Below, one piece after another: positions 29,299-64,000 of a stretch of DNA of 64,000 nucleotides. The DNA is taken from assembly GCF_963169125.1 (NCBI RefSeq), contig NC_084802.1:39640607-39704606 (forward strand), in the 5' to 3' direction. Source of the DNA: Humulus lupulus (lineage: Eukaryota > Streptophyta > Magnoliopsida > Rosales > Cannabaceae). Every line of letters begins with the position of its first letter. The first letter of the stretch is position 1. The translations under genes and the position numbers were made by a program. The notes beneath the pieces are model-generated. The model saw only the letters and a program-made list of their open reading frames with translations, searched no databases and was not told the DNA's origin.

Positions 29299-29640
29299 TG
29301 TAACGACCCAAATTTGCTAATCGGGCTTAGGGCCTTGATTAGTGTGCCTGGAGGGCAATAAATGATTTAATATGCTAATATGTGGATTTATGTGAATATA
29401 TGATAATGATGCATGTTTAGTTGAGTTAAATGTTCATGTGGGCCACATCAGGGTATTAGGGGCATAAATGAGATAGATGTGATACATGTGATAAATGCTA
29501 TATATATATGTGATATGTCTGTGGAGCACGATCCGAGAGAGTCTTGGGGAGCGGTTAGCCAGAAAGTCACAACGGGGTTGAGAATCTGACTCGGGGCGAG
29601 TCGAGGGATAATTTGGGTATTTGATATATTATGGGGTTAT

Positions 29641-29971
29641 TGTGACGCCCCACGTCACTATGGCTGCTTTCTGGAATGACGACTGGCCCTACAAACCAAG
29701 ACAAGTCTTTCCAGCGTGCTTTGTCCTCACTCGCACACTTCCTGGGAAAACTTCCCAGGAGGTCACCCATCCCTAGATTACTCCAGGCCAAGCACACTTA
29801 ACCATGGAGTTCTCAAGTGATGGGCTACCGAAAAGAAGATGCACCTTCAACTGTGTAGTCCCATACCTACACAGTCTTAGAATCATTACACTTGACCTTC
29901 CCCAGGCGGTGTGGGATTGCACAGCTTACCCGGTCTTTCCCCTTACGGATCACGGGATTCTGACTGTCACA
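29641..29971 (-). mobile_element. Solo Cassandra TRIM LTR, 331 bp
   Basis: On the minus strand it runs TGTGACAGTC to GGGGCGTCACA, with a perfect TSD GTTAT (29636-29640 and 29972-29976). The middle is derived from 5S rRNA: AACTCCATGGTTAAG, then GGATGGGTGACCTCCTGGGA, matching the promoter (A box to C box) part of plant 5S genes. Cassandra elements encode no protein and carry an RNA polymerase III promoter in the LTR. The right gypsy LTR lacks this insert at the equivalent site (36267). Confidence 0.93.
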
Positions 29972-31178
29972 GTTATCGAGTTAAGGAAATAAATATTTGG
30001 AGATATGTTTGAGGATAGAATGTCTAGGAGGGAATATTGGAGAAATTTACCATTTTGCCCTCGGGGACGTTTTGGTACCCCGAGCCTTGAGGTAACCACA
30101 TAGACTTAAGTTAAATAAACCAAAACTTAGAATTGTGTAGAGCATTCAGAAACTGACTCTTTCCCTTTCTCTCTCTCGAGGTGGTCATTCTTCTTCTCTC
30201 CATTTGAAGATTGGGAGCATTCTTGGTGGAATCAAGAATAAGGTCTAAGGAGTTCAGCTGGGAATTTAGGGAGCTTGGAGCTTGGAACATAAAGGGCTAG
30301 TTCTAAGGTTTAATTCAGTAAGGGGTAAGCTTAAATTATAAAGATTATGTGTAGAATTGCAGCTGGTTTGCTAGAGTTTGCATGTTAGTTAAGTTTGGAT
30401 TGTTCTTGAGTGTTTTAGTTGAGTTTTGGAGCAGATTTTTAATGGGTTTTTTATGTTGATATTGAGCTGGTATGTTGTGTTAATTATCAGGGATTGCTAG
30501 CTAAGTTTCAGGGTCAATTGGCTTGAGGAAATATAGAAAATTGGTGAAGAATTCTGGGTTTGGAGGTGAGGGCTGCGGCCCTAGGAGGGGCGCACCGCGG
30601 CCCATGCGCGCGCGCGGCCATGGGAGGCCGAGAAGTTCATGCGCGCCGCGGCGCTTGGTGTGTGCATTGCGGCCTGTGCGTGTTGCAGGGTAGTGCTAGC
30701 CTCTGTTTTGAGGCTAGCCGCGGCACCTGAGGGTGGGGTCGCGGCTCTTAGTGCCAGTTTGTGTTTTTAAGGGTGTTTAAGCTTGGGAATTCAATGGTTA
30801 AGGCTCGGGATGGATTTTATCACCCGGATTGATGGAATTCAAGGTCCCGGAGGTTAGGGTTATGGCTCGAAGATATTTAATGAATTAGAACTTGATGGAT
30901 GGATATTGTTAATGTGTTGTGACTAGGGTTTCGGCGAGGCTCAAATTAGAGGACTGTGCTCGGGACGTCGGTGCTCAGAAAGCTTGGGACTCAGGTAAGA
31001 AAACCCTTGTTCCCATAGAGCTTGTATGCAGGGCTGAGCCCAATGCATTTAAACTGCAGGGCATAGCCCTTTATCTGAATTTGCTAAAATTCTGTACTTG
31101 CTTGCTATGCTATAAATGTTATTATGTGAATGTTCGGCAAGAGTCGGGAACGGTGTAGACCGAGAACGGCAGGGGCCG

Positions 31179-31516
31179 TGTAATATCCAACATTTTCATA
31201 ATACATTTATTTATTATAAATCAAAGTTTTAATACATAAAATGTACAACTTTACAAATTTAAGAAATAGTAATGGAAAAATAGTGTTTAAAATATGATTT
31301 TATGTTTTTAATGAGATTAAAGAAAGAGAAACTTGAGTAGTCAAGTATTGGACCCAAATGTCATATAATTTTAATTGGGGATTTTTATAAAATTAAGAAA
31401 GTTTGGCTAAAGGGCTTATTTGAAAAGAATTTTAGTATTTTGGGTCCAAGTGTAATTTTTAAAAATAAATAAATAAATAAATAAAATAAAAGGCTTCAGC
31501 CTTTCATTTTACCCGA

Positions 31517-31584
<68 letters not shown>

Positions 31585-34312
31585 GTGTTACTGTTGCCGA
31601 CGACGCAGGAGTACTTTCCGGCCACCATTTTTAGCCACGCGCCGGACCGTTGGATTCAGAGGCCTCCGAACTATCGACCCACGCGGGAATCTAGAGCTCA
31701 CTCGCCGATTAAACGCCTCAACCACTCGATTTAAGTTCGGCCACCCCGCGACTTCAAAGTTGCGATTCGGCCACCTCGGGCATCCGTTTGCCGATCCGTC
31801 ACCACCATCGTGCTCCTCGTGTTGTGGGCTTCAAAACCCAATAACTTGTTCCTACATCTACCATAGTTGGGTGGTGGGCCCACCACGAGCCACCGCGATC
31901 CACCGTAGACCGACGGTCGAAACTTAGTGTTCGAGGTTCCGAAGTACGTTTTGAGTCTCAGAAAATCATCGTTTGACTTATTGTGGAACCCGATCATTTT
32001 GGTATAATTTCTTTAACCTATATATTTTGATTTAATTGTGATTGATTAGAGTAATTGTTATTATGTGTATTTATGGTATATAATTATATATTATTGATAT
32101 ATGGAATATTTTCTGTAATTTACTGGCTGTCTGGGATTATATATATTTTTGATACAGGTTTTGATTTTGGAATTGTCCACTTTATAGCCGTTGTGCTGTC
32201 TAATTTTCTAGAAAATATTAGATATTAAATCAAGTATAAAAATACATATTTAATTGATTTTATATTAATATGGAAATTATTATGATTAAGTAATTTTAAT
32301 TATTATTGTTATTATTTTGTTAAGTAAATCAAGAATACAGATTCATATATATATATATATATATATGAAAAGTATGATTTATAGTAAACCTATTATCTAA
32401 CCATTATTATTGTATATTAATATTTGAATATTAAAATAATATCAAATATTAGTTTCCTACAGTTATTGATATTTGTAAGACCAGTGAAGTTTGGAGAAAG
32501 TATATTTATTATATCACTGGAATTGATATTATGACTAACTAATAATAATATAAATATTTATATTTATATTATTATCATTATATTGATTATTACAACTTTA
32601 TGTTACAAATATGATTTCTTTTATAAAATGACTATTTGAATATATACATCCATATACGTATTGCTATTGAAGTATTTTGTTATTAATATCGAAATAAGTT
32701 TAATTATAGACGATAATTATTATTGTTGTTAGGATTATAATTATTATTATCATTTATATAGTTTCTGGTATGATTAATATACACTATCAATAGTGTATAT
32801 TTACGGATTAGATAGAATTTAATAAATTATGTGCCTTGAATAGGATTTGTATGGATTTGATTGATTGACTCTTGGTGAGCCGTTTTAAAATAAGCTAAGG
32901 ACCTAAGGTAAGTAAATCTCACCTTTTGTGCTTAAGTGTAAGATGCATGACTACATTGATTGTGTACATCTGATGAGTTAAGTATGGTATGATGATGATG
33001 CATATGATAAGTATGTGAAGAATGGTTATATGAACACCATAAGGGTGTTGTGTGATATGTAATTGATGAATTCTGTGATATGTGAAAGATGTCTTACTTG
33101 GTTAAGAATGATATGAATTATGTGCAAGTATGTGTTCTTATGTTGATGGATATGTGGATTACTCTATGTTCATGATTTGTTATATGTTATGATATATGAA
33201 GCGTTTAAGTTTTTAGGCTGGAAACCTTAGACCTGAGCCATAGCTCTACGTTAAGGTATAACAACGCCACCAACCCAAAGCTTCATGTATTATGACTAAA
33301 GATGTTTTGAGTTATATGAGATGTGATACAATGCCTTGATTGAATACCATCAACATCAGTCATGAACACGAACATTGGCATTTCAGCATCAGCATGTATG
33401 CATGGCATGTACAGTTATGTGATATAAGACCATGCATATGAATATGAGAAAAGTTATGAAATGTCTTGAAAAGTCTTATGTAAAGTTAAACATTTTAATG
33501 ACACAAGGCTTAAGCAAAGTGATAATAAGATGTTTAAAAAGGGTGCCACTGTTTTGATGAAGCAATCAAGTAAGTTCAGTAAAGAAGACGGAAGTCTATA
33601 AGACTTATAGTGGCTGCCCACTAGTGTGGGCTAGGTCAGAGTTGACCATTCAGATATGTTTGCCATGTTTCCGTCTTTCTCCTCCATATGTGTAATAAGT
33701 ATGGCAGCTATGGCAACGATGAAATGAGCGTTATGATGAGCCTAGCTGAGATGATGGCTAGCCGGAGCAGAACCCATGGGATTCTATATGATATGTGTAA
33801 CAAGCCCTGCAGGCATTGGCTGAATCAAACAGTGTGCACAAGTGATATTGGGCCCATAAAAATGTGAAACTAAAAGAAAGAGCATAAAAGTAAAGTTTGA
33901 AAGTGCATGAGCAATAAATGAAATGCATAAGTATATAAGTCAGCATATTAGTATATGTGCACTACAAACTCACGACATTCATGTGTATGTGTATGCATGA
34001 GATTTGCTTACTGAGCGTTAGCTCATTATGTTATTTTCCAACATTTTTCCAAGTGTGGCTTTAGCTGTTGAGCAACTTGTGGAGCACGGACTCAGTAGCA
34101 ATGCAATAATGGTTTAGAGTTTTCATATGGCTGCCTTAAATTTAAAGTATTCATACGTGTAATAATTTCTTCTAATAAGTTTATATAAAAGTTTAAATTT
34201 TTCTGTATTTCTTCGTATCATTTTATTTAATTCTTTTGGTCAAGTGCCTTACATACTCGTAAACCCTAGAATTACGAGTATGTGGCAGACGTACCCTACC
34301 TTAGGGACGTTT
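31179..34312 (+). mobile_element. Solo LTR, about 3.1 kb, inside the gypsy LTR
   Basis: Starts TGTAATATCC and is bounded by TSD GGCCG (31174-31178 and 34313-34317). The uninterrupted site can be read at about 37470 in the right LTR. The right end CTTAGGGACGTTT lacks the expected terminal CA. The left part holds a GC-rich leader-like section and a (CT)n run. No gag or pol is seen. The length and the conserved TTAGG.ACGTT end suit a large gypsy LTR of another family. The TSD borders lie in a GGCCG-rich tandem region, so they may shift by a unit. Confidence 0.75.
31520..31582 (+). repeat. (CT)n microsatellite, about 31 units
   Basis: An uninterrupted CT run of 62-63 bases within the 3.1-kb LTR. 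Pure runs of this length are usually young and length-variable. Confidence 0.95.
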
Positions 34313-34965
34313 GGCCGGGAATGGCAAAGGGCCGGGAACGGCGTTAGGCACGTTGAGTGCAAAGCCGAGTACGGCAAGGGGCCGGGAGCAGCGTTGAGCA
34401 TGTGGGGTGCGAGTTGCCAGGGCGAGTCCCTAAAAGGATACCTGGGATATCCTCACGGCGTGGTCCGCGAACCCAGGGCTTGGTAAACGCCTGGGACGGC
34501 TAGGTCGTATGTGTTTAGCCCATTGGTGGCCTGTTTATATGCTTGATATATGTATTGCATATGTTATCTGTTTGTGGGTTTTCTTGCTGGGCTTCGGCTC
34601 ACAGATGCTCTGTGGTGCAGGTAAGGGTAAAGAGAAGGCCAACCAACCGTGAGTGTAGCAGGCATGGGGCGGCGTGTACATGTTTGGCCAGCCTGGCTGC
34701 CACAGCCAGAGGATTTTGGGAGATGTTTTTAAATAAACCTAAGTTTTGTCGTTTAGTCGACTTGGTTCAGTTTATATATTGTAAATGTTTCTAAACTGTG
34801 TGTTTGGGATCCCAAGTGTAAAACTTTTTATGATTTTCTATGGAAACTATTAATCCTAGAGTTTATCCTCTGCTTATGGCTTAATTACACTATTTGACCT
34901 AAAACATCGATTAGCGAGTTAAAAGCACGTTTTTAAACTCACTTAGTAATGGCTCTAAGGAAGTA

Positions 34966-35933
34966 AAAACAGGCAGAAAGTGGGCGGACTTGGTATACCT
35001 ATCCACAATCACCCACACCGAGTCATGCTGTCCCACAGAGACCCCACCTTCACTTCCAAGTTTTGGGAGAGTCTGCAGAAGGCTATGGGCACGTAGTTAC
35101 GGTTTAGTACCGCTTATCGTCCTCAGACGGATGGGCAGTCTGAGAGGACGATTCAGATATTGGAGGATATGTTGCGAGCCTGTGTGCTTGATTTTGGGGG
35201 ATCGTGGAGTAAGTATCTCCCTTTGATCTAGTTCTCGTACAGCAACAGTTATCAGGCGACTATCGGAGTGGCTCCGTACGAGATGCTTTATGGAAGGAAG
35301 TGTAGGTCACCTATTCATTGGGATGAGACAGGTGAGAAAAGATATCTGGGTCCAGAGATGGTTCAGAGGACCAATGAGGCAGTTGAGAAGATTAGAGCGC
35401 GTATGCTCGCCTCCCAGAGTCAACAGAAAAGTTATTCAGACCTAAAACATAGGAGTGTGGAGTTTCAAGTTGGTGATCATGTGTTCCTTAGGGTTTCACC
35501 CATGAAGGGTGTGAAACGGTTTGGTGTTCGGGGCAAGTTGAGCCCTAGGTTTATTGGCCCCTTTGAGATTCTGGAACGAGTTGGGGAGGTAGCTTACAGA
35601 TTAGCGATGCCTCCAGCTTTATCAGGGATTCATGATGATTTCCATGTATCCATGCTCCAGCAGTATATGTCAGATTCGACGCATGTGCTAAGTTTTGAGA
35701 ATCTGGAGCTTGATCAGGATTTGTCCTATGAGGAGAAGTCGGTTCAGATTCTTGGCTGAAAAGATAAAGTCTTGAGAAACAAGACCATCGCCTTGGTGAA
35801 GGTGCTATGGAGAAACAGCAAGATTGAGGAGGCGACGTGGGAACGTGAGACAGAGATAGGGGAGCGGTACCCCGAGTTGTTCAGGTAATTTCGAGGACGA
35901 AATTTCTATAAGGAGGGGATAGTTGTAACGATC
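34966..35933 (+). pseudogene. Gypsy integrase C-terminal fragment
   Basis: Begins in mid-integrase (HRDPTFTSKFWESLQ). It holds the third catalytic acid of the DDE core in QTDGQSERTIQ, then the GPY/F-type region (KLSPRFIGPFEILERVG) and a terminal stretch with chromodomain-like or tail motifs (EEATWERE, YPELF). Stops at about 35098, 35230 and 35759 interrupt it. The mature protein would insert gypsy cDNA. This stub lacks the zinc domain and the first two acids and cannot act. Confidence 0.88.
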
Positions 35934-38109
35934 CGAATTTGCTAATCGGGCTTAGGGCCTTGATTAGTGTGCCTGGAGGGCAATAAATGATTTAATATGC
36001 TAATATGTGGATTTATGTGAATATATGATAATAATGCATGTTTAGTTGAGTTAAATGTTCATGTGGGCCCCTTCAGGGTATTAAGGGCATAAATGAGATA
36101 GATGTGATAAATATGATAAATGCTATATATATATATGTGATATGTCTGTGCAGCACGATCCGAAACAGTCCTGGGGAGCGGTTAGCCAGAAAGTCACAAC
36201 GAGGTTGAGAATCTGACTCGGGGCGAGTCGAGGGATAATTTGGGGATTTGATATATTATGGGGTTATCGGGTTAAGGAAATAAATATTTGGAGATATATT
36301 TGAGGATAGAATGTCTAGGAGGGAATATTGGGGAAATTTACCATTTTGCCATCGGGGACGTTTTGGTACCCCGAGCCTTGAGGTAACCACATAGACTTAA
36401 GTTAAATAAAACAAAACTTAGAATTGTGTAGAGCATTTAGAAACCGACTCTTTCCCTTTCTCTCTCTCGAGGTGGTCATTCTTCTTCTCTCCATTTGAAG
36501 ATTGGGAGAATTCTTGGTGGAATCAAGAATAAGGTCTAAGGAGTTCAGCTGGGAATTTAGGGAGCTTGGAGCTTGGAGCATAAAGGGCTGGTTCTAAGGT
36601 TTAATTCAGCAAGGAGTAAGCTTAAATTATAAAGATTATGTGTAGAATTGCAGCTAGTTTGCTAGAGTTTGCATGTTAGTTAAGTTTGGCTTGTTCTTGA
36701 GTGTTTTAGTTGAGTTTTGGAGCAGATTTTTAATGGGTTTTTGATGTTGATATTGAGCTGGTATGTTGTGTTAATTATCAGGGATTGCTAGCTAAGTTTC
36801 AGGGTCAATTGGCTTGAGGAAATATAGAAAATTGGTGAAGAATTCTGGGTTTGGAGGTGAGGGCCGCGGCCCTAGGAGGGGCGCACCGCGGCCCATGCGC
36901 GCGCGCGACCATGGGAGGCCGAGAAGTTCATGCGCGCCGTGGCGCTTGGTGTGCGCGCTGCGGCCTGTGCGTGTTGCAGGGTAGTGCTAGCCTCTGTTTT
37001 GAGGCTAGCCGTGACGCCTGAGGGTGGGGTCGCGGCTCTTAGTGCCAGGTTGTGTTTTTAAGGGTGTTTAAGCTTAGGAATTCAATGGTTAAGGCTCGGG
37101 ATGGATTTTATCACCCGGATTGATGGAATTCAAGGTTCAGGAGGTTAGGGTTATGGCTCGAAGATATTTAATGAATTAGAACTTGATGGATGGATATTGT
37201 TAATGTGTTGTGACTAGGGTTTCGGCGAGGCTCAAATTAGAGGACTGTGCTCGGGACGTCGGTGCTCGGAAAGCTTGGGACTCAGGTAAGAAAACCCTTG
37301 TTCCCATAGAGCTTGTATGCAAAGCTGAGCCCAATGTGTTTAAACTGCAGGGCGTAGCCCTTTATCTGAATTTGCTAGAATTCTGTACTTGCTTGCTATG
37401 CTATAAATGTTATTATGTGAATGTTCGGCAAGAGCCGGGAACGGTGTAGACTGAGAATGGCAGGGGCCGGGAACGGCGTTAGGCACGTTGAGTGCAAGGC
37501 CGAGTACGGCAAGGGGCCGGGAGCAGCGTTGAGCACGTGGGGTGCGAGTTGCCAGGGCGAGTCCCTAAAAGGATACCTGGGATATCCTCACGACGTGGTC
37601 CGCGAACCCAGGGCTTGGTAAACGCCTAGGACGGCTAAGTCGTATGTGTTTAGCCCATTGGTGGCCTGTTTATATGCTTGATATATGTATTGCATATGTT
37701 ATCTGTTTGTGGGTTTTCTTGCTGGGCTTCGGCTCACAGATGCTCTGTGGTGCAGGTAAGGGTAAAGAGAAGGCCAACCAACCGTGAGTGTAGCAGGCGT
37801 GGGGCGGCGTGTACATGTTTGGCCAGCCTGGCTGCCACAACCAGAGGATTTTGGGAGATGTTTTTAAATAAACCTAAGTTTTGTCGTTTAGTCGACTTGG
37901 TTCAGTTTATATATTGTAAATGTTTCTAAACTGTGTTTTGGGATCCCAAGTGTAAATTTTTTTATGATTTTCTATGGAAACTATTAATCCTAGAGTTTAT
38001 CCTCTGCTTATGGCTTAATTATACTATTTGACCTAAAACCTCGATTAATGAGTTAAAAGCACACTTTTAAACTCACTTAGTAACAGCTCTAAGGAAGTAG
38101 GGCGTTACA
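35934..38109 (+). repeat. Right gypsy LTR, 2176 bp, intact
   Basis: TGTAACGATCC to GGGCGTTACA, adjacent to TSD GTAGC. It contains a GC-rich GCCGCGGCCC block (36860-37030), CAGGTAAGAAAAC (37284) and the conserved CTTGCTGGGCTTCGGCTCAC block (37718) with GTGCAGGTAAG after it. Confidence 0.92.
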
Positions 38110-38939
38110 GTAGCATTCGGATTTGTATCAGTATCAAGAGTCCCTTTTTTATTTTCCTCTTGAGTAACCAAATGAAAGACACGATTCACTTCAGGCAATG
38201 GATCCATTAACAAAATACTGCCACGAACTTGAGAGAACTGATCGGAAAGCCCCATTAAAAAGGACATAATGTATTCCATGTGATGGTGTACTTGTGGTGG
38301 TTCTTGCAGCTTCTTGACACCACCACAAGTACAACCATTACATGTGCAAGAAGGGCGGTAATTGGAGAGCTCTTCCCAAACAGTTTTCAGCCTTGTAAAA
38401 TACATACCCACGGTCTGAGCATCTTGTTTCAAATTCATCAAACTTTTTCTTAGATTGAATATGTGTGGCCCATTTCTCTGATGGAATCTAACTTTCAGAT
38501 CAGTCCAAATAGTGGCAGCTGATTCATCATAAAGAATGCTGGAAGAGATTTCTTTAGATACAGAATTCAAAATCCAGGAGATAACAATGTTATTGTTTCT
38601 AATCCAGGCATTGTGAAGTATGTAATCAGATGGTGGAGGTTTGGGAATAGTGCCATCAAGAAACCCTAATTTATTCTTGATAGATATCGATAATTGCATA
38701 GCTCTACTCCAAGACACATAGTTATCTTGACCAGTCAAGAGCTGAGACACAAGAATATTACCTGGATTATCTCCATGATGAAGGTAATAAGGATTCGTGG
38801 GATCTTCCAGAAAGCTTTTTGGATTGGTCATTTGATTACTTTGATTCCCATGGATGATGGGGTCTGGCGGAGCTTCAGCAAATCGTGGAGTTGATTCTCC
38901 AGTTCCTTCTGGCATGGGTGTTTGATCATCAGTGGACAT
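38110..38939 (-). pseudogene. Copia A gag, N-terminal part, cut by gypsy insertion
   Basis: Starts at ATG 38939 (MSTDDQTPMPEGTGES), 200 bases after the PBS. It carries the copia-type gag signatures NYVSWSRAMQLSI and LGFLDGTIPKP, then a UBN2-like region (YFTRLKTVWEELSNYRP, CTCNGCTCGG). The frame runs intact for 275 codons to the gypsy junction (TSD GTAGC) and resumes at 29298. Gag forms the virus-like particle in the cytoplasm. It is disrupted here only by the insertion. Confidence 0.88.
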
Positions 38940-47767: not shown

Positions 47768-48595
47768 GGCTTGCTACAAGAAGACAAATGAAAACACAAA
47801 GAAGAAAGCTATTAAACCCTAGGCACAAGTTAGCAAAAATTGAAACAAGAAACACTTAGCACCAAAAGCATTAGGATTCCGAATATATACAGAATTCGGT
47901 GAACAAAAGTGGCAATTTTGAAAATGGGTAACCAAAAAGCAGGGGAAACCAAATTAGTGATTAATGCCAAAAATATCTCCTTTTATAAAATATTCTCTCA
48001 CACCAAAAGATTGGAAAACTTTTCAATGATTTCGAATATAATGAGATAAAACAAAAAATTGCTTTCCATTTTTATTTCAATTTTTTCTAGTACATGGTCA
48101 AACAATAAAAAAAAAAATTTATTTTTTTATATAGAAAAACTAAATTGTCAAAATAAGATAAGATCCAATTTCCATATCATATGTGTCCTTGTAAATGTCA
48201 AGTCATATGCAAGAGAAATAAGATAATCATTTAAAAAAAAATAGAGACTGAATAACATAATTAGAATATTAAGGTATGATGATAAAAATGATCCGAAAAA
48301 AAGTATATACCAGCCACAAAAAATATTTAATCAAATCAATATGTGTATGAGGCTTACAATATATCGTACACAGTTTCGACAACAGACATTTGTGTGAGCA
48401 TGTGTAAGTAAAGAAAATTGGCGTTTCTTTTGAGCCTTTTTGAGCAAGGGTCATTACCCATGTTAGGCAATATTAACATTTTTCCAATTGTAACCATAAT
48501 GGAGGCTATGACTCTCATACTGATGGTAGCCATTTACACTGGTAGAGTATCATCCATTATAATTGCTAATTACCTGCTAACTACCTCTAATATAA
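47768..48595. other. AT-rich stretch without recognised gene
   Basis: Probably the spacer upstream of the env-like frame plus the flank of copia B. No coding region is supported. It borders the copia B 3' LTR at 48596. Confidence 0.4.
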
Positions 48596-49705
48596 TGTTA
48601 GGAAAATATGTATTTGTCTCAATGGAAATGGTAAGAAAATTACAACTCTATGCAAAAATATTACAATAGACAAGGATTGATTAAATAAAATGGTACAAAC
48701 TCTAAGCAAAAGATTACAAATAAAGTAAAGTGTTTGAAACAAAAGAAAAGAAAAGATTACAACTCTTAAACAAGAAATACAAGTAAATAGAGAAGAAGAA
48801 TATAAAGATGAAAAGCAATAGAATGAAAGAAAGGAACAAGAAACAAAAGATAAAAAACTCTCACTCACACTACCAAAGTGAAGAGTGTTGGGGATCACCA
48901 ACTTGAACAAGGTTTGAAACCTTTGTCCAAAAGCTTATTTCCCACCTAACTCAAGCACTAAGGGATCTCTCACAGATTATAGGAAATGCTTTCTGAAATT
49001 ATCAAGCATCAAGGCTCCTATTTATAGAGTTTAGAGACATCCTTTGAATTTCAAATTCCGCCAACCCACATGGCTGTTACCAATGATTAATTGGTTTTTT
49101 ATGGAATTAAAAATGAGATTTTGGAGCTATTCAAGTTTTTGGAACTGTTCAACAAAGATTGAAAAAAAATGAAAATTTGGTCAGAAATACATTTGTCCGC
49201 AACCACTGCTCTCTGTCCCATGGGCCGCGGCCACCAACATTATGTGGCCGTGGCCACTGACCAATTTTAGCACTTGAAAATGTGCTGTTTTTCCAAACGG
49301 TTCCAAACCCTCCCAAATGATTTTGTAACCCCCAAAACACATTATTGGGGTTAAAATCATATCTCTAGTCATTTCACATATGGCTTTTATGAAATTCATC
49401 TCAATATTGTGTAACAACAAATTTACACAATAAAGGGTAAATTTTGGAAGTTACAAATTTGTAGCTGAATTTGTAACACCAAATATGTTACATATTTGGA
49501 TATTTCTCATATATCTAAATATTATAACTCTCTATTATATGTTACAATATGTGACACTCTTTGTCACATTTATTTAATCTAAAACATTATATTATAATAT
49601 AATATTACATTATATTATAAAATAATATAACATTCCCCCACTAGATTAAATAGTTATCTTATTGTAACACTTATTTAATCAATCATTATATTTTAAAATA
49701 TAACA
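48596..49705 (-). repeat. 3' LTR of copia B, 1110 bp
   Basis: On the minus strand TGTTATATTTTAAAATATAA at 49705 to CCTAACA at 48596. It is preceded by the purine tract AAGTGGGGGATA. It contains a TATA-like CTATAAATAGGAGCC (about 49027-49013) and a GGCCGCGGCC block (49200-49265). Confidence 0.9.
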
Positions 49706-53300: not shown

Positions 53301-53445
53301 GCACATGTATCATACCACCACCCTTTCACCTTGCCTTGGATCGCATTCACCTCACTAAGGGTAGCAACTATGTTTTCCTCTTGAGTTGCATTCACCTTAG
53401 GTCCTTGCTGGTCTTTTCTATGCCTACACCCTCTAGCATAGTGAC
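50380..53445 (-). pseudogene. Copia B polyprotein: PR, IN, RT, RNase H
   Basis: Order on the minus strand: the rest of the zinc knuckle (YARGCRHRK, next to the TSD); protease WWYDTCATVHVT, in which DTGA has become DTCA; the integrase zinc region (LWHLRLLQIG, CETCVKSK) and core (FIDDFSRYTYVF, RNDRGGEY, HNGVAKRKNR); reverse transcriptase ([31 protein letters not shown]); and RNase H ([29 protein letters not shown]). Stops and frameshifts occur near 53009, 52850, 52140, 51940, 51400 and 51215. It is therefore inactive. Confidence 0.9.
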
Positions 53446-55795
53446 TGTAGCGTCCCAAATTTGCTAACAAGGCTTAGGGCCTTGATTGGCGTGCTTGGAG
53501 GGCAATAATTGATTTATTTTGTTAATATGTGAATTTGATAAGTATGTGATTAGAAATGCATGTTTAGGTGAATTAAATATGCATGTGGGGCCCATTTGGT
53601 TGCTAGGGGCATATTTGTAATTTTAGCCCGTTGAGGGCATAAATGCAATATTTATGTATATTGTGACTGATACCACGTGTGAGTTGTGATATAATTGTGT
53701 TGCACGATCTGAGACGATCCTAGGGAGCAGTTTAGCTGGAAAGTCACAACGTGGTCAAATACTCGTCTTGGGAGGAGCCTAGGGGTATTTTGGGTATGTA
53801 ATATGGGTTTTGGATTTATTAAGTATCAGGTAGTAATTTAGTAATGATTCGAGTATGCTGGGATTAACGGGAACTTTTAGGTATACTCGAGGACTTAGCG
53901 GAATTTGGGTGAAATGACGAAATTGCCCTTGAGGTTAGTATAAGAATTTTATTAGGGGAAAGGGCAAAATGGTAATTTGGCCTTAAGAGGTCATTCATGT
54001 TTCTTTTACACTTAGGCTTATTCATGATTTTTCTGCTGGAAGTCTAGAGAGAACCAAACTAGAAGGAAGGTGAAGAAGAGCTAATCTTCTTTGGGGTCAA
54101 GGAAGGATCTCAAGGCTGAAGTTGGGGAAACTAGAGTCAAGCATAGGCCAAGCTTAATTCAGAGGTAAGGTTTCATCTCTGGTTATGAGTTTCCTTGAAT
54201 GTTTTGAGAGTTTGGGTTGAGTACTGAAAATTGGATTTGTGGCTTAGTGATTGTGAAGTTCAGCTTGGGAATCAAGGGATTTATGCTTGGAGTTGGACTT
54301 GGAGGTAGCTCAAGGTCGAGATTCTGCTTGAGGTAAGGATTCCACGCATCTTTGAAGTTTATTTGCTGGTGTGGTATAAGTTTTCTGAAGGGTGGTTTAA
54401 GTTTTATAAAGTGTGGTTTAAGTTTTGTAAAGTTTTAAACCACTAGGTGATTCTTGGGTTTGATTGTGTGTTTGGGCTTGTTGTTGTTGTTTCTGAGTTG
54501 CCATACTGTTTATTTGAGATTTTAGGTCGAATTGGGACTTAGGTGCACCTTGGTATTGATTTGGAAGAGTTTTGGCTCGGGAAAAATGTTGGGAAAAACC
54601 TAGTATTATGGGTTCGCGTATGAGCGCCGCGGCCCTGTTCTTCCGTGCCACGACGCTAGGTTGAATCAGGACAGGGGAAGCTTGTTGGGCGTCGCGGCCC
54701 CTATAGGGCTGTGTTGTGGGGCTAGGCCAATTTCAGGAGATGGGAATTTGTGTTTTTTGGGTTTTGGCTCAGGGGGCTTGGGGGACGCTTTCGCTACCTT
54801 GTGTGGGGAAACGGGAGGATCCGAGAGCACGGGATTGGTTCTGAGGGGTGAATATGAATTGGTTAGTAATGAGAGTGTTATGTATGTGTTGTGACTAGGT
54901 TTTCAGCGAGGCTCAGGTTAGAGGACTGTGCTCGGGATTTCGGTGCTCAAGAAGCTCGGAACACAGGTAAGAAAACTGTTGTACCCGTAGAGCAGGGCAA
55001 AGCCCATAGTTGTGTTGCAGGGCACGACCCTATATGATTGTGTGCAGGGCGTAGCCCCATTGATTATGTTAATACATGTTTAAGTATTTGTTTAATTATT
55101 CTATGTGTGCATATATGTGAATGAATGGCAAGATCCGGGAACGGTGAAGGCCGAGAACGGCAAGGACCGGGAATGGCGAAGGCCGAGAACAGTAAGGGAC
55201 CAGGAGCAGCGTTTAGCACGTGGAGTGCGAGTTGCCAGGGTGAGACCCTAAAGGATACCTGGGATATCCTCACAGAGCAGACCGCGAACCCAAGAACTGG
55301 TAGAGCGCCTGGGATGACATGGTCGTATGTGTTTAGCCTGTGGCAGATTTGTTATATGCTGAATGATTGATATGCATGTGTTATTTATTTGTGTGGAGTT
55401 TTCTTGCTGGGCTTCGGCTCACGGGTGCTCTGTGGTGCAGGTAAGGACAAGGGGAAAGTCGACCAACCATGAGTACGGAGAGTGTGAAGCGACGCGTACA
55501 TGTCTGGTCTGCCTGGCTGCCACGGCCAGGGGTATTTTTTTGGGAGATGTTTTGTACTAAATCTTATTTTGTCGTGTAGTCGACTTTAATCATATTGTGA
55601 GTTGTAAATATTTATAAGCAATATTTTTGGATCCCGAATGTTAAACGCTTTATAATTTTCAAAGAATGACTACATTTTCAAATTGTGTGATTTTAATACA
55701 GTTTAGTTACACTTTTGACCTAAAGTCTTGCCTAGCAAGTTAAATGCACATTTTAAACTCACTTAGTAACGGCTCTAAGGTAGTAAGGCGTTACA
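53446..55795 (+). mobile_element. Solo gypsy LTR, 2350 bp, in copia B gag
   Basis: TGTAGCGTCCC to AAGGCGTTACA with a perfect TSD GTGAC (53441-53445 and 55796-55800). It splits the gag zinc knuckle between CFVCGKKGH and YARGC. It is related to the LTRs at 29299 and 59859: shared start AAATTTGCTAA..GGCTTAGGGCCTTGATT, CAGGTAAGAAAAC at 54965, CTTGCTGGGCTTCGGCTCAC at 55403. No internal genes. Confidence 0.93.
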
Positions 55796-56373
55796 GTGAC
55801 CCTTTTTCCCACACACAAAGCAAGGACCTTTCTCGCCCTTAAACTTGTTTGGGTTGGTTTTTGGACCCAAGGATTTGTCGTTACCCTTTTTCCTTTTGTT
55901 TTTGGGATGTTTTGGTTGTGATACCGCATTTGCTTTGGAAGTCTCTCCATTAGACCCCTCTACAAGTTTATCTCTACATATCAATTCCTCCTCAATTCGA
56001 ATATGTTTTTGGATTTCCTCCAAAGAATAATCCTCATTTTTATGAAGGATTCCTTTCCTATAGCTCTTCCAAGTTGGTGGTAATTTAGCCACTATAGCAC
56101 CAACTTGAAAGGCCTCGGGAAGCTCAATCTTTAACACTTTGAATTTGTTAACAATTATTTGCAATTCATGTATTTGAGGAAGGATAGGTTTATCACCAAA
56201 AAATTTGAAATCAAAGTATTGAGATATCATAAAAATTTTGGTACCTTCCTCTTCCGCCTTGAACTTTGTCTCAAGTGCGTCCCATATCTCCTTTGCCAAT
56301 TTGGTCTCGGTGTAGAGGTCATAGAGCCTATCGGAAAGAGCATTGAGGATATGACTCCTACAAAGGAGATTGT
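55796..56373 (-). pseudogene. Copia B gag, middle and C-terminal part
   Basis: A long open frame beginning at the composite junction (LLCRSHILNALSDRLYDLY). It continues through UBN2-type gag sequence (AKEIWDALETKFKAEEEG, LPEAFQVGAIVAKLPPTW, KHIRIEEELICRD) and a basic linker to the first half of a CCHC knuckle (CFVCGKKGH). The reading frame is intact, so both interruptions are by insertion and not decay. It joins 63596-63806 upstream and 53445 downstream. Confidence 0.9.
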
Positions 56374-59191
56374 TGTAACGCCCTACTTCCTTAGAGCCGT
56401 TACTAAGTGAGTTTTAAGACAAAACAGTGTGCAATGATCTCGCTAACCGAGGTTTTTAAACAAAAGTTTGACTAATTAAAAGTTAAGGCTGTAATCTTAG
56501 AAAAATGCGTCGTTTCAATAGAACTTCTAGTATTAAACATTTGGGATCCCAAAATAAGGTTTGAAAACTATCTACATCTTAAAATAAGTTTACAATTGAT
56601 CAGTTATAAAAATCATAGATTGTTACAGCCATTTTCGAATAAATCCCCAACCAAAGCAGTCGGGCAGGCCAAACATGTACGCGTCGCTTCACGCTCTCCG
56701 TACTCATGGTTGGTTGACTCAGTCATTGCCCTTACCTGAAACACAGAGCACCCGTGAGCCGAAGCCCAGCAAGAAAACTCATGCAGAACATAACATATGC
56801 AATGTATACAGTTTATCATAACAGATAATCCACAAATAAACAAGTCAACCATTAGACTAAGCAAACACGGCCATGCCGCCCCAGAACCTTACCAAAGCCC
56901 TGGGGTATCGGTTCTCACCGTAAGGATAACTCATGTATCCACCGGGCCCCGCCCTGACTATAGCATCCCATGCGCTAGGTGTTACTTCCGGCCCCGCTGC
57001 CGTACCCGGCCTACGCCGTTCTCGGCCCTTGCCATTCAATTTACTATAATCACACATATAGCATAACACAACAACATTCCAATAAATATTAATTCATTTA
57101 AGTATACACCCTAACATGTAATGCAATATAGGGCCATGCCCGGCAATCATCTCATCATGCAACATGCAATATAGGGCCATGCCCGGCAATCACACTATGG
57201 GCCCACGCCCTATCCTACGGGTGTTATAGTTTTCTTACCTGCATTCCGAGCCTCCTGATGCACTAAAGCCGCGAGCACGGTCCTCAAGCACGAGCCTCTC
57301 CAATAACCTAGTCACAACACACAAGAAATATCCCTCAACACTAATCAAATCAAAAACCGCTTCCCGGGACCAATCCCACACTCTCGGGACTCCCAACTCC
57401 CTAAAACAATTCATCGGAAACATCCCCCGAACCCCCGGAGCAAAAGCTCAAAATGCAACTTTTGGTGCCCTGAAAATGGCCTAGCGCCGCGGCACTCCCT
57501 TCAAGGGCCGCGGCGCCCAGCGAGATGCCCCTCTCCTGATGCAACCTCGCGCCACGGCGCCCAAGAACAGGGCCGCGGCGCTCATACGCGAACCCAGATT
57601 TCTGGGTTTTCCCATGCGTTTTTCCCGAGCTTCAACCTCTCCAAATCACCCCAAATAAATACCTCAACCCCAAAATCAAATCAAACCTCATATAAACCAT
57701 CTAACAACCCATAAACACTAGATTCAAGCTCAAAACACAAACATACCCAACAATCCACCCTTAGATTGCAAAAATCAGCAACTTCAAACTAAAACTTTAA
57801 AAACTTAACTCAAGCTTCAAACTTCTCAAATCAAAACATAAATCAAACTTAAATATGCATAAGTTCCTTACCTTAAGTAGAAAATTCACCCAAAAGCCTC
57901 CTCACTTCAGCCCTTCTTCCCTTCCTCTTCTTCTCTTTCACTTGCCCTAGCTTTCTTCTCTCCTTCTCTTTCTTCTCTTCCATTTCTATCAATGCTTAAG
58001 TGAACATAAGTGCCCAAACCGAACCCCCCTAAATCCCAACTGAAATTTGTCTATAACCCTTGCCAAAAGACCATTTTACCCTTTCCTACTAATCCTCCTT
58101 AGCTAAACCTTAAAGGGCACTTAAGTCTTTACACATCATTTCAATTCTATCACTTTTTACCTTAAAACTTGTTACCCAAAGCAGTAACTAATGGTTACCC
58201 AGGTTACTAAATCTCCAATAACCATTACCCGCTAAATCTCAGCTTAACCATAAAATTCCCAAAGTACCCCTAGGCTCCTCCCGAGCCGGGTATAGAAATC
58301 CCGTTGTGACTCTTAAGTTAAGTAGCTCTCTAGGACCGTCTCGGCACGTGCATCACAATAATAACACCACACTCACGTGGTACAATTCACAGAACACAAT
58401 TATCACATATATACCCTCAGCGGGCTAAAATTACAAATTTACCCCTATCATGCAAACGGGGTCCACATGCGTAATTATTTCACCTAACATGCATACTAAC
58501 CACGTAGTCATGCATCTCAATGTTCAATTAGTCATATAACATGCTTTAAATCATAACCATGCATTTAACTCATAAAATCACACATAAATCCCATCGTGCC
58601 CTCCTGGCACGCTAATCAAGGCCCTTAAGCCTTATTAGTGGGATCAACTTGTAGGCCCCGCTGGCCTAACCCTTAGTACAACTTCAGTTTATGCTGAATT
58701 AAGAGTCAGAACTCTCCCTCCTTTCTCTGAACACCTTACAGATCCTCGTCTGTTACCACGCAGAGATGCACCTCTCTCTTCCCGGAACTTTATTTCCTCA
58801 TAACTTAGCAATTTACCAGCTCTTTATTCTTTCAAATAGGCAAACACTCCTGCCTTAAGAAGTTTCAACGACCTTCTTGGCTTTCCCTCTGAACTAAAGC
58901 CAAACTGTAGTATTCATTATCTTTCACCTCTTACCAAGCCCTATGTCGTGTTACATTAGAAAGACACCAGCAACCGCCACCACGACTAACTTGCCAGGGA
59001 TTACACTTCCCTTAATACCTCAAGTATTCGCCTACTTAGCGCTTAATTCTTTAAGATCCTTGATAAACTTTCAGACTGCCATTCCACTTGCAATCAACTG
59101 ATAATTCCAGGTTCCCACTCTGTTCCTTTCGTCCTCCAAATCCATTCCAACAATTTAAAATACTATGGGGTCTCAATTCCGTATCATCGAC
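56374..59191 (-). repeat. Left arm of the palindrome, 2818 bp
   Basis: Reverse complement of 59314-62131 with equal length and only scattered single-base differences (I counted seven while comparing about a third). On the minus strand it consists of 545 bases (59191-58647) leading into a complete 2273-bp gypsy LTR (58646-56374) that ends GGGCGTTACA at the TSD. Confidence 0.93.
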
Positions 59192-59313
59192 GTTTTACCC
59201 TGAAACCAGTTCACTAGAAAATTTCCCGAAATACTTCTATCCTTGGTTTCCAGCTGGCAATAACCAGGTCGTAGATCAACTCTTGGAGACATCGTCCCCA
59301 CTGGTACCCAACA
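59192..59313 (-). pseudogene. Palindrome loop: gypsy reverse transcriptase scrap
   Basis: On the minus strand one frame reads RVDLRPGYCQL, matching the conserved (K/R)IDLRSGYHQL motif of gypsy RT, then ETKDRSISG where intact copies have an IREEDIPKT-like stretch. Only about 40 codons are present. They are not repeated in the arms, so this is the unpaired centre of the inverted repeat. Confidence 0.7.
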
Positions 59314-62131
59314 GTCGATGATACGGAATTGAGACCCCATAGTATTTTAAATTGTTGGAATGGATTTGGAGGACGAAAGGAACAGAGTGGGAACCTGGAA
59401 TTATCAGTTGATTGCAAGTGGAATGGCAGTCTGAAAGTTTATCAAGGATCTTAAAGAATTAAGCGCTAAGTAGGCGAATACTTGAGGTATTAAGGGAAGT
59501 GTAATCCCTGGCAAGTTAGTCGTGGTGGCGGTTGTTGGTGTCTTGCTAATGTAACACGACATAGGGCTTGGTAAGAGGTGAAAGATAATGAATACTACAG
59601 TTTGGCTTTAGTTCAGAGGGAAAGCCAAGAAGGTCGTTGAAACTTCTTAAGGCAGGAGTGTTTGCCTATTTGAAAGAATAAAGAGCTGGTAAATTGCTAA
59701 GTTATGAGGAAATAAAGTTCCGGGAAGAGAGAGTTGCATCTCTGCGTGGTAACAGACGAGGATTTGTAAGGTGTTCAGAGAAAGGAGGGAGAGTTCTGAC
59801 TCTTAATTCAGCATAAACTGAAGTTGTACTAAGGGTTAGGCCAGCGGGGCCTACAAGTTGATCCCACTAATAAGGCTTAAGGGCCTTGATTAGCGTGCCA
59901 GGAGGGCACGATGGGATTTATGTGTGATTTTATGAGTTAAATGCATGGTTATGATTTAAAGCATGTTATATGACTAATTGAACATTGAGATGCATGACTA
60001 CGTGGTTAGTATGCATGTTAGGTGAAATAATTACGCATGTGGACCCCGTTTGCATGATAGGGGTAAATTTGTAATTTTAGCCCGCTGAGGGTATATATGT
60101 GATAATTGTGTTCTGTGAATTGTACCACGTGAGTGTGGTGTTATTATTGTGATGCACGTGCCGAGACGGTCCTAGAGAGCTACTTAACTTAAGAGTCACA
60201 ACGGGATTTCTATACCCGGCTCGGGAGGAGCCTAGGGGTACTTTGGGAATTTTATGGTTAAGCTGAGATTTAGCGGGTAATGGTTATTGGAGATTTAGTA
60301 ACCTGGGTAACCATTAGTTACTGCTTTGGGTAACAAGTTTTAAGGTAAAAAGTGATAGAATTGAAATGATGTGTAAAGACTTAAGTGCCCTTTAAGGTTT
60401 AGCTAAGGAGGATTAGTAGGAAAGGGTAAAATGGTCTTTTGGCAAGGGTTATAGACAAATTTCAGTTGGGATTTAGGGGGGTTCGGTTTGGGCACTTATG
60501 TTCACTTAAGCATTGATAGAAATGGAAGAGAAGAAAGAGAAGGAGAGAAGAAAGCTAGGGCAAGTGAAAGAGAAGAAGAGGAAGGGAAGAAGGGCTGAAG
60601 TGAGGAGGCTTTTGGGTGAATTTTCTACTTAAGGTAAGGAACTTATGCATATTTAAGTTTGATTTATGTTTTGATTTGAGAAGTTTGAAGCTTGAGTTAA
60701 GTTTTTAAAGTTTTAGTTTGAAGTTGCTGATTTTTGCAATCTAAGGGTGGATTGTTGGGTATGTTTGTGTTTTGAGCTTGAATCTAGTGTTTATGGGTTG
60801 TTAGATGGTTTATATGAGGTTTGATTTGATTTTGGGGTTGAGGTATTTATTTGGGGTGATTTGGAGAGGTTGAAGCTCGGGAAAAACGCATGGGAAAACC
60901 CAGAAATCTGGGTTCGCGTATGAGCGCCGCGGCCCTGTTCTTGGGCGCCGTGGCGCGAGGTTGCATCAGGAGAGGGGCATCTCGCTGGGCGCCGCGGCCC
61001 TTGAAGGGAGTGCCGCGGCGCTAGGCCATTTTCAGGGCACCAAAAGTTGCATTTTGAGCTTTTGCTCCGGGGGTTCGGGGGATGTTTCCGATGAATTGTT
61101 TTAGGGAGTTGGGAGTCCCGAGAGTGTGGGATTGGTCCCGGGAAGCGGTTTTTGATTTGATTAGTGTTGAGGGATATTTCTTGTGTGTTGTGACTAGGTT
61201 ATTGGAGAGGCTCGTGCTTGAGGACCGTGCTCGCGGCTTTAGTGCATCAGGAGGCTCGGAATGCAGGTAAGAAAACTATAACACCCGTAGGATAGGGCGT
61301 GGGCCCATAGTGTGATTGCCGGGCATGGCCCTATATTGCATGTTGCATGATGAGATGATTGCCGGGCATGGCCCTATATTGCATTACATGTTAGGGTGTA
61401 TACTTAAATGAATTAATATTTATTGGAATGTTGTTGTGTTATGCTATATGTGTGATTATAGTAAATTGAATGGCAAGGGCCGAGAACGGCGTAGGCCGGG
61501 TACGGCAGCGGGGCCGGAAGTAACACCTAGCGCATGGGATGCTATAGTCAGGGCGGGGCCCGGTGGATACATGAGTTATCCTTACGGTGAGAATCGATAC
61601 CCCAGGGCTTTGGTAAGGTTCTGGGGCGGCATGGCCGTGTTTGCTTAGTCTAATGGTTGACTTGTTTATTTGTGGATTATCTGTTATGATAAACTGTATA
61701 CATTGCATATGTTATGTTTTGCATGAGTTTTCTTGCTGGGCTTCGGCTCACGGGTGCTCTGTGTTTCAGGTAAGGGCAATGACTGAGTCAACCAACCATG
61801 AGTACGGAGAGCGTGAAGCGACGCGTACATGTTTGGCCTGCCCGACTGCTTTGGTTGGGGATTTATTCGAAAATGGCTGTAACAATCTATGATTTTTATA
61901 ACTGATCAATTGTAAACTTATTTTAAGATGTAGATAGTTTTCAAACCTTATTTTGGGATCCCAAATGTTTAATACTAGAAGTTCTATTGAAACGACGCAT
62001 TTTTCTAAGATTACAGCCTTAACTTTTAATTAGTCACACTTTTGTTTAAAATCCTCGGTTAGCGAGATCATTGCACACTGTTTTGTCTTAAAACTCACTT
62101 AGTAACGGCTCTAAGGAAGTAGGGCGTTACA
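59314..62131 (+). repeat. Right arm of the palindrome, 2818 bp
   Basis: 545 bases with no recognisable gene (59314-59858), then the gypsy LTR from TGATCCCACTAATAAGG (59859) to GGGCGTTACA (62131), 2273 bp. Both conserved splice-donor-like sites are present (CAGGTAAGAAAAC at about 61264; the CTTGCTGGGC block at 61732). Confidence 0.93.
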
Positions 62132-63154
62132 ACTTGGTATCAGAGCGAGCCAAGGTTTATTGGTTCTGGAGATCGACCGAACATGTACGCTCGCTGTCAG
62201 TGACAAGCTCGACTCAGGGTTGGTTGGTATGAATGATTGACATGTCTGAATATATGTTTGAATGCCCTGTTTGCCTGCTTATTTATATGGAGCATGAGGA
62301 ATGAAATGACATATGCATGAGATACTGATAGGGCCTGGCCCTTGACTATTGCATGTTGAGATTGATGCATGCTGAATAATACTATTATGCATATGGATGA
62401 ATATTGGCATAATGGTTCGCATATTGAGTGTACGTGGTGAATTTTCTGGATTAAATTCATATGTTATATCTGTATATTGGCTTGTATGAAGCATGATGAG
62501 TATGGATATACTTAGTGGTGATAGAATCTGGTAGCTAAATGTATATCATTATGATTTTGGCCTATTTATGCTTTTTGGGTGCATGATATATGTGGTCGTT
62601 GGAGTCTAGTTGTGGTTTGGTTCAGAGTTTGAACCACGGAGCTCGGGAGTTGGTCAGCTTTGACAGGTGAACTCGTGTTGTTGGTTCCTAGAAGGGTTTG
62701 TGAACCTGGTATTGGATTGAAAGGGGGAATTCTAGATATATGTTGGAGTTGAGATCTCCAGTTATCCCTGTTAGCAGCAGCAGAAAGTCACTAGTGTGTG
62801 AGTAGGCTGTGGAGTTTGTTAGTTGAGATGGGATAGAAGAACAATGGATTCTCTGGGGAGATGGCTGATTTAGATGTTTTAACAGTAAGGTTACCGGTGA
62901 TGGTTTACTGTGAGGTATGGACAGATAAAGGTATTGTATGAGAGGTTTAAAGGGTGTTATCCTCGGGTTTTGAGGAGAGTTCGAGTTGACAAGGAATTTA
63001 TCAATAGGTGAGCAGAGTTAATTCCACCCTTGGTTATGAGGATGAGAGATCCTGATTAGAGGGTTGTTTTAAATGTTGAGGCAGAGAGATGCCTGGAAGT
63101 GGTACTCAGGCTGAGGTACTGGCTTAATGGGTTGGAAAGAACCTAGATGATGAA
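62132..63154 (+). other. Gypsy PBS and 5' leader
   Basis: Directly after the LTR comes ACTTGGTATCAGAGCGAGCC, a standard tRNA-iMet PBS, making the LTR of the right arm a 5' LTR. About 1 kb follows with no supported gag frame; 5' leaders of this length are usual in large gypsy elements. It ends abruptly at the Cassandra PBS. Confidence 0.65.
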
Positions 63155-63595
63155 TGGTATCAGAGCCTTGAGCCAGCCGGAAGTGTGGCCGACGGGGACG
63201 TCGGGCCCGTAAGGGAGGGTGATTGTGACAGTCAAAATCCCGTGATCCGTAAAGGGAAAGACCGGGTAAGCTGTGCAATTCCACACCGCCTGGGGAAGGT
63301 CAAGTGTGATAATTCTAAGACTGTGTAGGTATGGGACTACATAGTTGAAGAGGGCTTAAATGGATTGATGGGTACTACCTATATCAGGAAGGTGCATCTT
63401 CTTTTCGGTAGCCCATCACTTGAGAACTCCATGGTTAAGCGTGCTTAGCCTGGAGTAATCTAGGGATGGGTGACCTCCTGGGAAGTTTTCCCAGGAAGTG
63501 TGCGAGTGAGGACAAAGCACGCTGGAAAGACTTGTCTTGGTTTGTAGGGCTAGTCGTCATTCCAGAAAGCAGCCATAGTGACGTGGGGCGTCACA
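63155..63595 (+). mobile_element. Truncated Cassandra TRIM: PBS, interior, 3' LTR
   Basis: PBS TGGTATCAGAGCC at 63155, a 56-base interior ending in the purine tract AAGGGAGGGTGAT, then a 372-bp LTR (63224-63595, TGTGACAGTC to GGGGCGTCACA). 5S rRNA-derived sequence lies at about 63411-63485 (GTTAAGCGTGCTTAGCC, GGATGGGTGACCTCCTGGGA). Compared with 29641-29971 this LTR has about 39 extra bases near 63350-63390. The 5' LTR is missing; gypsy sequence stands in its place. Confidence 0.9.
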
Positions 63596-63600
63596 ATTGT

Positions 63601-63806
63601 CCTCCTCCCTCTTCTTTATTTTCTCCACCTCCTTAGGAGTGTCCTTGTCGGATGGCGTTGGGAGAGGTTCTAGAGTGGACTCTAGAATGTTTGAGAGTGG
63701 TCAAAAGGAATCTCACCTTGTCTTACCACCTAGTGAAATTGGACCTATCAAACCTATCCAACCTCACTAGGTCTTGATTCATTATCTTGACGGTTTCACC
63801 TTCCAT
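63601..63806 (-). pseudogene. Copia B gag, N-terminal part
   Basis: The ATG at 63806 starts MEGETVKIMNQDLVRLDRFD, about 28 bases inside the end of the 5' LTR. It follows the gag pattern FD..NFTRW and then, after a frameshift near 63720, PLPTPSDKDTPKEVEKIKK up to the composite junction. The frame resumes at 56373. Confidence 0.8.
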
Positions 63807-63833
63807 TGAAACAAACAAGGGTATGCTTTTGAA

Positions 63834-64000
63834 TGTTAGGAAAATATATATTTGTCTCAATGGAAATGGTAAGAAAATTATAACTCTATGCACAAATATT
63901 ACAATAGACAAGGATTGATTAAATAAAGTGTTACAAACTCTAAGCAAAAGATTACAAAAAAGTAAAGTGTTTGAAATAAAAGAAAAGAAAAGATTACAAC
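63834..64000 (-). repeat. End of the copia B 5' LTR (partial)
   Basis: Matches 48596-48770 closely (TGTTAGGAAAATAT, ACAAGGATTGATTAAATAAA) and continues past the window. The sequence just inside it (TTCAAAAGCATACCC on the minus strand) is not an initiator-Met PBS, so the primer is unidentified. Confidence 0.88.

Follow-up and report, generated by a model that had tools for sequence, protein, structure and literature searches.

A palindromic two-U5 insertion joining gypsy and Cassandra sequences in hop, and a recurring class of gypsy-Cassandra chimeras

The closest described relatives of the insertion reported here are the template-switching complexes of Sabot and Schulman (2007; PMC1950507), in which two long terminal repeat (LTR) elements were fused in reverse transcription, for which the authors propose co-packaged RNAs, and integrated once with a 5-bp target-site duplication (TSD). 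Our insertion, which shares these properties, occupies positions 56374-63595 of a 64,000-nucleotide stretch of the hop (Humulus lupulus) genome (NC_084802.1, positions 39640607-39704606), hereafter the window. Whereas the complexes of Sabot and Schulman are direct, single-family structures with three LTRs, the outer two of which are highly similar, the hop chimera is palindromic, combines two families (a gypsy element and Cassandra), lacks the gypsy polypurine tract (PPT) and U3 end, and has two U5 ends outermost. As in their complexes, one TSD encloses the whole structure; in place of similar direct outer LTRs with a third, internal LTR there is an inverted gypsy LTR on the left and a Cassandra LTR on the right.

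Kalendar (2020; PMC7215508) describes Cassandra, a terminal-repeat retrotransposon in miniature (TRIM), as non-coding and widespread in vascular plants. The features set out there and in PMC10853983, namely a 5S-like LTR, an iMet primer-binding site (PBS), a short internal region and a PPT, are found in the chimera, and tandem arrays also occur in this same genome; the chimera differs in having gypsy sequence where the 5' LTR would be. Partnerships of autonomous and non-autonomous elements have been put forward for RLG_Cereba/RLG_Quinta (PMC11302176), RLG_Wilma/Sabrina/WHAM (PMC9744471) and TRIMs (PMC4717578). The helper is likewise deduced there, from a PBS in common, a likeness of the LTR termini or the existence of longer related elements, whereas here physical chimeras tie the partners together, not shared motifs alone.

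Neither a palindromic two-U5 LTR insertion nor a survey of gypsy-Cassandra chimeras was found among the titles and abstract openings listed from the open-licence literature. Self-primed palindromes of retroviruses form when minus-strand DNA folds back, and are known as unintegrated or defective products (none was found among the titles and abstract openings listed); the chimera would share the fold-back with them, but it was integrated with a TSD.

Structure of the insertion

The TSD, ATTGT, is perfect, and both borders of the insertion fall exactly on LTR termini (Table 1). When the local flanks were fused through one ATTGT, the reading frame was open across the insertion site, and minus-strand 55973-56371 matched Retrotran_gag_2, a copia-type gag (E 8.6e-32); this host copia gag copy seems to carry a frame break, closer to the gag start. 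An earlier reading of the window, made from its letters and hereafter called the sequence-only reading, had placed a shared ATTGT in an otherwise continuous copia gag frame, in agreement with the joined flanks.

Table 1. Features of the chimeric insertion and its target site (window positions)
Feature	Position	Strand	Remark
Host-element copia gag, left part	55973..56373	-	resumes on the minus strand past 63600
TSD ATTGT, left copy	56369..56373	.	next to gypsy LTR terminus
Left arm: inverted gypsy LTR from its U5 end, without about the first 18 bp of U3	56374..58638	-	genome-copy comparison
Left arm: inverted gypsy 3' internal region; PPT and ~310 bp absent at LTR joint	58639..59191	-	
Loop	59192..59313	-	59192-59218 native continuation of left arm; second native gypsy piece after deletion, to 59313
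Fold-back joint CCCAACA/GTCGATG	59313..59314	.	one genome site at <=2 mismatches
Right arm: gypsy 3' internal region	59314..59866	+	
Right arm: gypsy LTR	59867..62131	+	U3-start deletion identical to that of left arm
Gypsy leader	62132..63154	+	runs on from PBS in two genome copies
Gypsy PBS core TGGTATCAGAGC	62135..62146	+	3 nt past LTR
Gypsy-leader/Cassandra joint	63152..63158	.	edge of Cassandra PBS; AATGGT common to native sequences
Cassandra PBS, short internal region, PPT	63155..63223	+	PPT called by eye
Cassandra 3' LTR, ends in U5 terminus	63224..63595	+	5S-like block 63415-63486
TSD ATTGT, right copy	63596..63600	.	next to Cassandra LTR terminus

The inverted arms (56374-59191 and 59314-62131) are 2,818 bp each, with 8 mismatches (99.7% identity) and a spacing of 122 bp, so that the equal arms and loop of the sequence-only reading were borne out to the base; the repeat tool returned arms of 2,820 bp (56372-59191 and 59314-62133), the outermost 2 bp of which are due to chance. 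When the eight differences were polarised by family copies, three had changed in the left arm and five in the right, and at seven of the eight the changed base was absent from all aligned copies (3-6 per site); at 56786 it also occurs in two other LTRs of the window. The genome copies themselves are 81.7-89.5% identical to the arms in long LTR stretches (91% in one short stretch) and 92.5-98.9% identical in the internal piece. Because the changed bases are almost all absent from the copies, and the copies diverge far more than the arms do, the arms appear to fit one molecule of origin; given their mutual agreement, two independent parents would not be expected. At usual substitution rates the arm difference would correspond to roughly 0.1-0.2 million years, a loose figure in view of reverse-transcription errors and gene conversion.

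Inverted repeats left by unsplit palindromic reads are a known class of assembly artefact. We consider such an origin extremely unlikely here, as changes are distributed over both arms, the outer ends lie exactly on LTR termini with a TSD, and independent palindromes exist at two other loci (L047 and L057, below).

A search of the 2.48-Gb genome assembly with 59100-59400 gave 80 matching pieces of the gypsy parent (40 scored of 3,488 candidates). The native 3' half was read from six genome copies (L003-L008) and the 5' half from stretches of two of them (L011, L012). In gypsy sense the native element begins with an LTR, a 3-nt spacer, the PBS and the leader; the distal loop piece follows after about 1.3 kb and the 3' internal piece after a further 1.25-1.3 kb or so, and a stretch of about 310 bp with the PPT at its end leads into the 3' LTR. 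The PBS and PPT are present in the genome copies, and the gypsy parent is non-coding and resembles a large retrotransposon derivative (LARD), because in the one copy scanned (L005 and L011 stretches) the longest gypsy-sense open reading frame (ORF) is at most 76 aa.

Compared with this native order, both arms pass from the 3' internal piece directly into the LTR at GATCCCA/CTAATAAGG, and the PPT (ATGAGGAGGGGATAGT in genome copies) and U3 terminus expected of a LARD-like gypsy element are gone from both, within a deletion of about 310 bp that includes about the first 18 bp of U3. The gypsy LTR that the sequence-only reading had seen at the arm ends is thus present, without its U3 start and PPT. 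At up to 2 mismatches this deletion joint matched the two arms only. The loop consists of two native gypsy pieces joined through ACT, with about 1.25-1.3 kb deleted between them, and this joint had one genome site at up to 3 mismatches; reversed-pattern controls gave zero for both deletions and for the fold-back joint. The search for other genome copies, which the sequence-only reading had listed as a check for the loop and the gypsy-Cassandra junction, matched only the window's own sites at these three joints, and the idea of a multi-copy element family was rejected. Because the deletion and fold-back joints occur nowhere else in the assembly, the chimera is not a multiplying family; it is a unique member of a recurring class. 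Two other candidates were also set aside: the loop as reverse-transcriptase code, since genome copies show two parent pieces joined by deletion, and an LTR start at TGTAACACGAC (59552), on comparison with family copies.

On the right, gypsy homology is unbroken from the LTR through the PBS, which we take to be of tRNA-iMet type, and along the leader up to about 63158 in two genome copies. A search with 62950-63330 (40 scored of 4,132 candidates) showed the leader/Cassandra joint to be spanned by the window alone, with the 39 other matches ending at 63158. AATGGT (as in GATGATGAATGGTTAGAAG) was present in eight of the ten gypsy copies read at the joint (L011 has AATTGT and L012 ACTGGT), and Cassandra has CACATAATGGTATCAGAGCC at the same place in most copies. 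As AATGGT is native to both, the joint lies within it, at the edge of the Cassandra PBS. In the established retroviral scheme, a finished minus strand ends at the PBS. It is conceivable that two cDNAs entered one target cut, each through a single U5 end, and that repair then joined their free ends, which would suit an insertion with U5 ends on both sides; we regard this as very unlikely, because the joint falls at the Cassandra PBS with the shared AATGGT, as reverse transcription predicts, and because joints at the PBS edge recur in the genome.

Beyond the joint, Cassandra is represented by its PBS, internal region and a 3' LTR alone, the place of the second LTR on the 5' side being taken by the gypsy leader. 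The sequence-only reading was therefore right about a fusion of gypsy PBS and leader to Cassandra, while the "3' half" that it gave for the latter runs in fact from the PBS (63155) to the LTR end, that is, internal region plus 3' LTR. The 5S-like promoter block was recovered by direct alignment: 63415-63486 scored 77 against a plant 5S gene, compared with a maximum of 29 for shuffles (n=500) and 17 for the gypsy LTR control. With the Rfam 5S model the window's Cassandra LTR fell below threshold (13.3 bits against a gathering score of 38, E 5.7), and no 5S was listed in scans of 54000-64000 and of three other Cassandra loci (E<=1). The Cassandra label is based on the alignment to this 5S gene and on anatomy.

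Read inward, the outer ends are TGTAACGCCCTAC for gypsy and TGTGACGCCCCAC for Cassandra. Both are U5 ends and share 11 of 13 terminal bases; the chance of at least 9 matches in the 11 inner bases is 1.3e-4 by a simple estimate that ignores base composition. The sequence-only reading had spoken of two non-matching termini from different families. The families do differ, but the termini are both U5 and nearly match, and no odd integrase chemistry is therefore required. A further gypsy or Cassandra end hidden inside the interval, which that reading had raised as a way for ATTGT to be coincidental, was not found: native gypsy and Cassandra pieces cover the interval end to end and therefore leave no unexplained element end inside.

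Several other repeats were observed in the window. A solo gypsy LTR (53441-55800, flanks GTGAC) lies within the copia gag region that also received the chimera, and a direct repeat (48594-48763 and 63832-64000, 95.9%), the second copy of which reaches the window edge, may represent the LTRs of the host copia element. A gypsy element of a related family (29299-38114, matching flanks GTAGC) carries two inserts in its first LTR, a larger one and a solo Cassandra LTR with flanks ATAAC (29639-29971). An imperfect palindrome of about 766 bp (5362-6127, 81%) has no relation to the chimera.

Gypsy-Cassandra chimeras elsewhere in the genome

A search with the Cassandra part (63155-63595) yielded 42 full-length rows, with 40 of the 3,542 candidates scored; the rows are ranked by identity and hence are not a random sample. 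The 5' side was read for 30 of the 42, including the window, and the remaining 12 were assigned from the table by the Cassandra LTR lying immediately upstream. Gypsy sequence was joined to Cassandra in at least 13 of the 42 rows (the window, L044-L052, L055, L056 and L058), a lower bound because 3' sides were not read throughout. None of the 13 showed a copia partner.

The outer ends of these insertions vary. Two U5 ends are found in the window, L047, L058 and L057, the last a Cassandra-only palindrome; gypsy U3 with Cassandra U5 in L044, L045, L055 and L056; Cassandra at both ends in L046 and L048; and gypsy at both ends in L049-L052. L046, L048 and L050-L052 are closer to the Sabot and Schulman type, but between families, and L049 also has an inverted gypsy stretch of 673 bp. 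In L045, at about 3190, a gypsy LTR passes to the Cassandra PBS via TAATGGT, a microhomology of the same kind as at the window joint.

All 13 gypsy-Cassandra chimeras have perfect 5-bp TSDs, as do all 14 with L057 added; L062 and L036, whose ends could not be placed, were excluded. Left ends were first placed by LTR homology in the window and L049-L052, and LTR homology agrees on the end of L045. In L044, L046-L048 and L055-L058 they were located by the right-hand 5-mer before TG and accepted when on an LTR terminus, and the TSD therefore gives no independent check at these loci. Of the copies read that have a Cassandra 5' LTR, some have matching flanks (L026, L028, L035 and L037) and others do not (L027, L031, L033 and L040), which by this reading means that not every copy has a TSD. 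Three of the Cassandra loci (L037, L038 and L033; C1:56397679 on, C9:159303573 on) hold tandem arrays with a period of 444 bp, and in L062 (2790-3240) an inverted Cassandra LTR faces a truncated copy head-to-head, next to a tandem array.

These TSDs also bear on chromosomal rearrangement, in which a minus-oriented gypsy and a plus-oriented Cassandra inserted nearby would have undergone inverted duplication and deletion. The left end by itself does resemble a gypsy insertion in minus orientation, seen at its U5 end. However, the two outer ends share one 5-bp TSD, the gag frame is open across the target site, and perfect TSDs also occur at 13 other mixed or palindromic insertions, and we consider a rearrangement highly unlikely.

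Across the genome, the joint of a gypsy-type LTR end, ACT, PBS and Cassandra internal sequence was found at 277 sites at up to 3 mismatches (reversed control 0), a count that may include a few mutated canonical copies, since canonical Cassandra is 4 mismatches from the pattern. A shorter form gave 307 sites and the reciprocal joint, Cassandra LTR-TAA-gypsy leader, 39 sites, both at up to 2 mismatches (controls 0). In all these counts inherited copies of one chimera, and elements with both joints (L050-L052), are counted repeatedly.

Two of the loci are palindromes in their own right. L047 (TSD CCAGC) begins with an inverted U5 end of the gypsy3 family, has arms about 640 bp long that differ by 8 mismatches and 1 gap, with a 357-bp loop, and continues into ACT-PBS-Cassandra; its inverted copy ends near LTR position 1326, short of the PPT. 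In L057 (TSD AGTAT) Cassandra U5 is folded on itself, with 109 bp to the centre and 4 mismatches. The inverted copy lacks the PPT in all three palindromes (window, L047 and L057), and in L047 and L057 it stops before the U3 start.

Proposed route of formation

Based on these observations, we think it probable that the insertion is one integrated aberrant cDNA with a fold-back palindrome, from a Ty3/gypsy-type particle that had packaged non-coding gypsy and Cassandra RNA. The sequence-only reading had likewise proposed a self-primed or strand-switched gypsy cDNA that recombined with Cassandra in one particle and integrated once, and this remains the best fit to the joints, the TSD and the genome comparison. 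The tRNA-primed minus-strand DNA on gypsy RNA would, after the first transfer, have skipped about 310 nt with the PPT and U3 start, and then another stretch of about 1.25-1.3 kb; both deletions are seen in the sequence, and the moment of the PPT skip is our reconstruction. Without a PPT for plus-strand start, the 3' end of the minus strand may have folded back as its own primer and been extended along the whole strand into a palindrome, a step with which the deletion common to both arms and the single joint agree. The plus strand would then have run through U5 and PBS and undergone normal plus-strand transfer to another minus strand with the gypsy PBS and leader. That strand would already have been chimeric, a Cassandra minus strand that ended at the PBS having been extended on gypsy leader RNA via the AATGGT seen at the joint. 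Finally, integrase would have joined the gypsy U5 and Cassandra U5 ends to one target with a 5-bp stagger, as seen in the TSD. L047 is the simple product that this model predicts: fold-back, then PBS transfer to Cassandra.

Several points weigh against this account. The order of the steps is our reconstruction from the assembled sequence. The fold-back joint has no more than 0-3 nt of microhomology, the plus-strand transfer is invisible at its joint, and the gypsy leader between two PBSs requires an extra switch that L047 does not need. The leader/Cassandra joint is known from similarity search only, as one of 40 scored matches, and the U5 end of gypsy3, which L047 and L058 use, agrees with Cassandra U5 at only 9 of 13 bases.

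The minimal microhomology would also suit an intermolecular switch in place of the fold-back, in which the minus strand would have passed to another minus strand copied from the same deleted RNA, or co-packaged sister RNAs would have been copied in opposite sense. Strand-to-strand switches do occur, as in L058, which reads as an inverted gypsy3 LTR switched straight to Cassandra with no palindrome. The private deletion common to both arms is absent elsewhere, and an intermolecular switch would therefore need two molecules sharing it; we regard this origin as unlikely, though worth bearing in mind, and favor the fold-back.

A likely helper for Cassandra and the possible fate of PPT-less cDNA

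PMC7215508 gives the autonomous partners of Cassandra as "(unknown)", and PMC9744471 states that identifying the autonomous family behind the movement of a particular non-autonomous one is difficult without experiments. For reverse transcription to fuse two elements, both templates must be present in a single reaction, and the chimeras are therefore direct traces of shared packaging. Both parents of the window chimera look non-autonomous, since no long ORF in gypsy sense is present in the gypsy parent copy that was read, and the enzymes would then have come from a third element. Protease, reverse transcriptase and RNase H lie in open stretches within the gypsy parts of L044 and L055, with gag also in L044; gag was found in the internal part of L046, and the gypsy parts of L046 and L055 are 89.9% identical. 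Coding Ty3/gypsy RNA thus itself recombined with Cassandra. Because gypsy-Cassandra chimeras recur and include coding Ty3/gypsy sequence, a Ty3/gypsy lineage is the likely helper of Cassandra in this plant, although the identity of the acting integrase is not proven.

Beyond the sequence-only reading, whose facts and main inference were upheld, the present analysis brings out a missing PPT and U3 end, a two-U5 geometry, a joint at the PBS edge and a recurring class of which the chimera is one unique member. The palindromes also suggest that loss of the PPT need not end the life of a cDNA, and that integrase can use two U5 ends from different families. We are evenly divided on a wider proposal: that fold-back is a standing rescue route for cDNA whose PPT was lost or not reached, that integrase accepts the resulting two-U5 palindromes, that PBS transfer between families sharing a tRNA primer adds Cassandra, and that Cassandra is a passenger of a Ty3/gypsy lineage in this plant. 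If this proposal is correct, surveys of chimeras could name the helpers of non-autonomous elements in other genomes.

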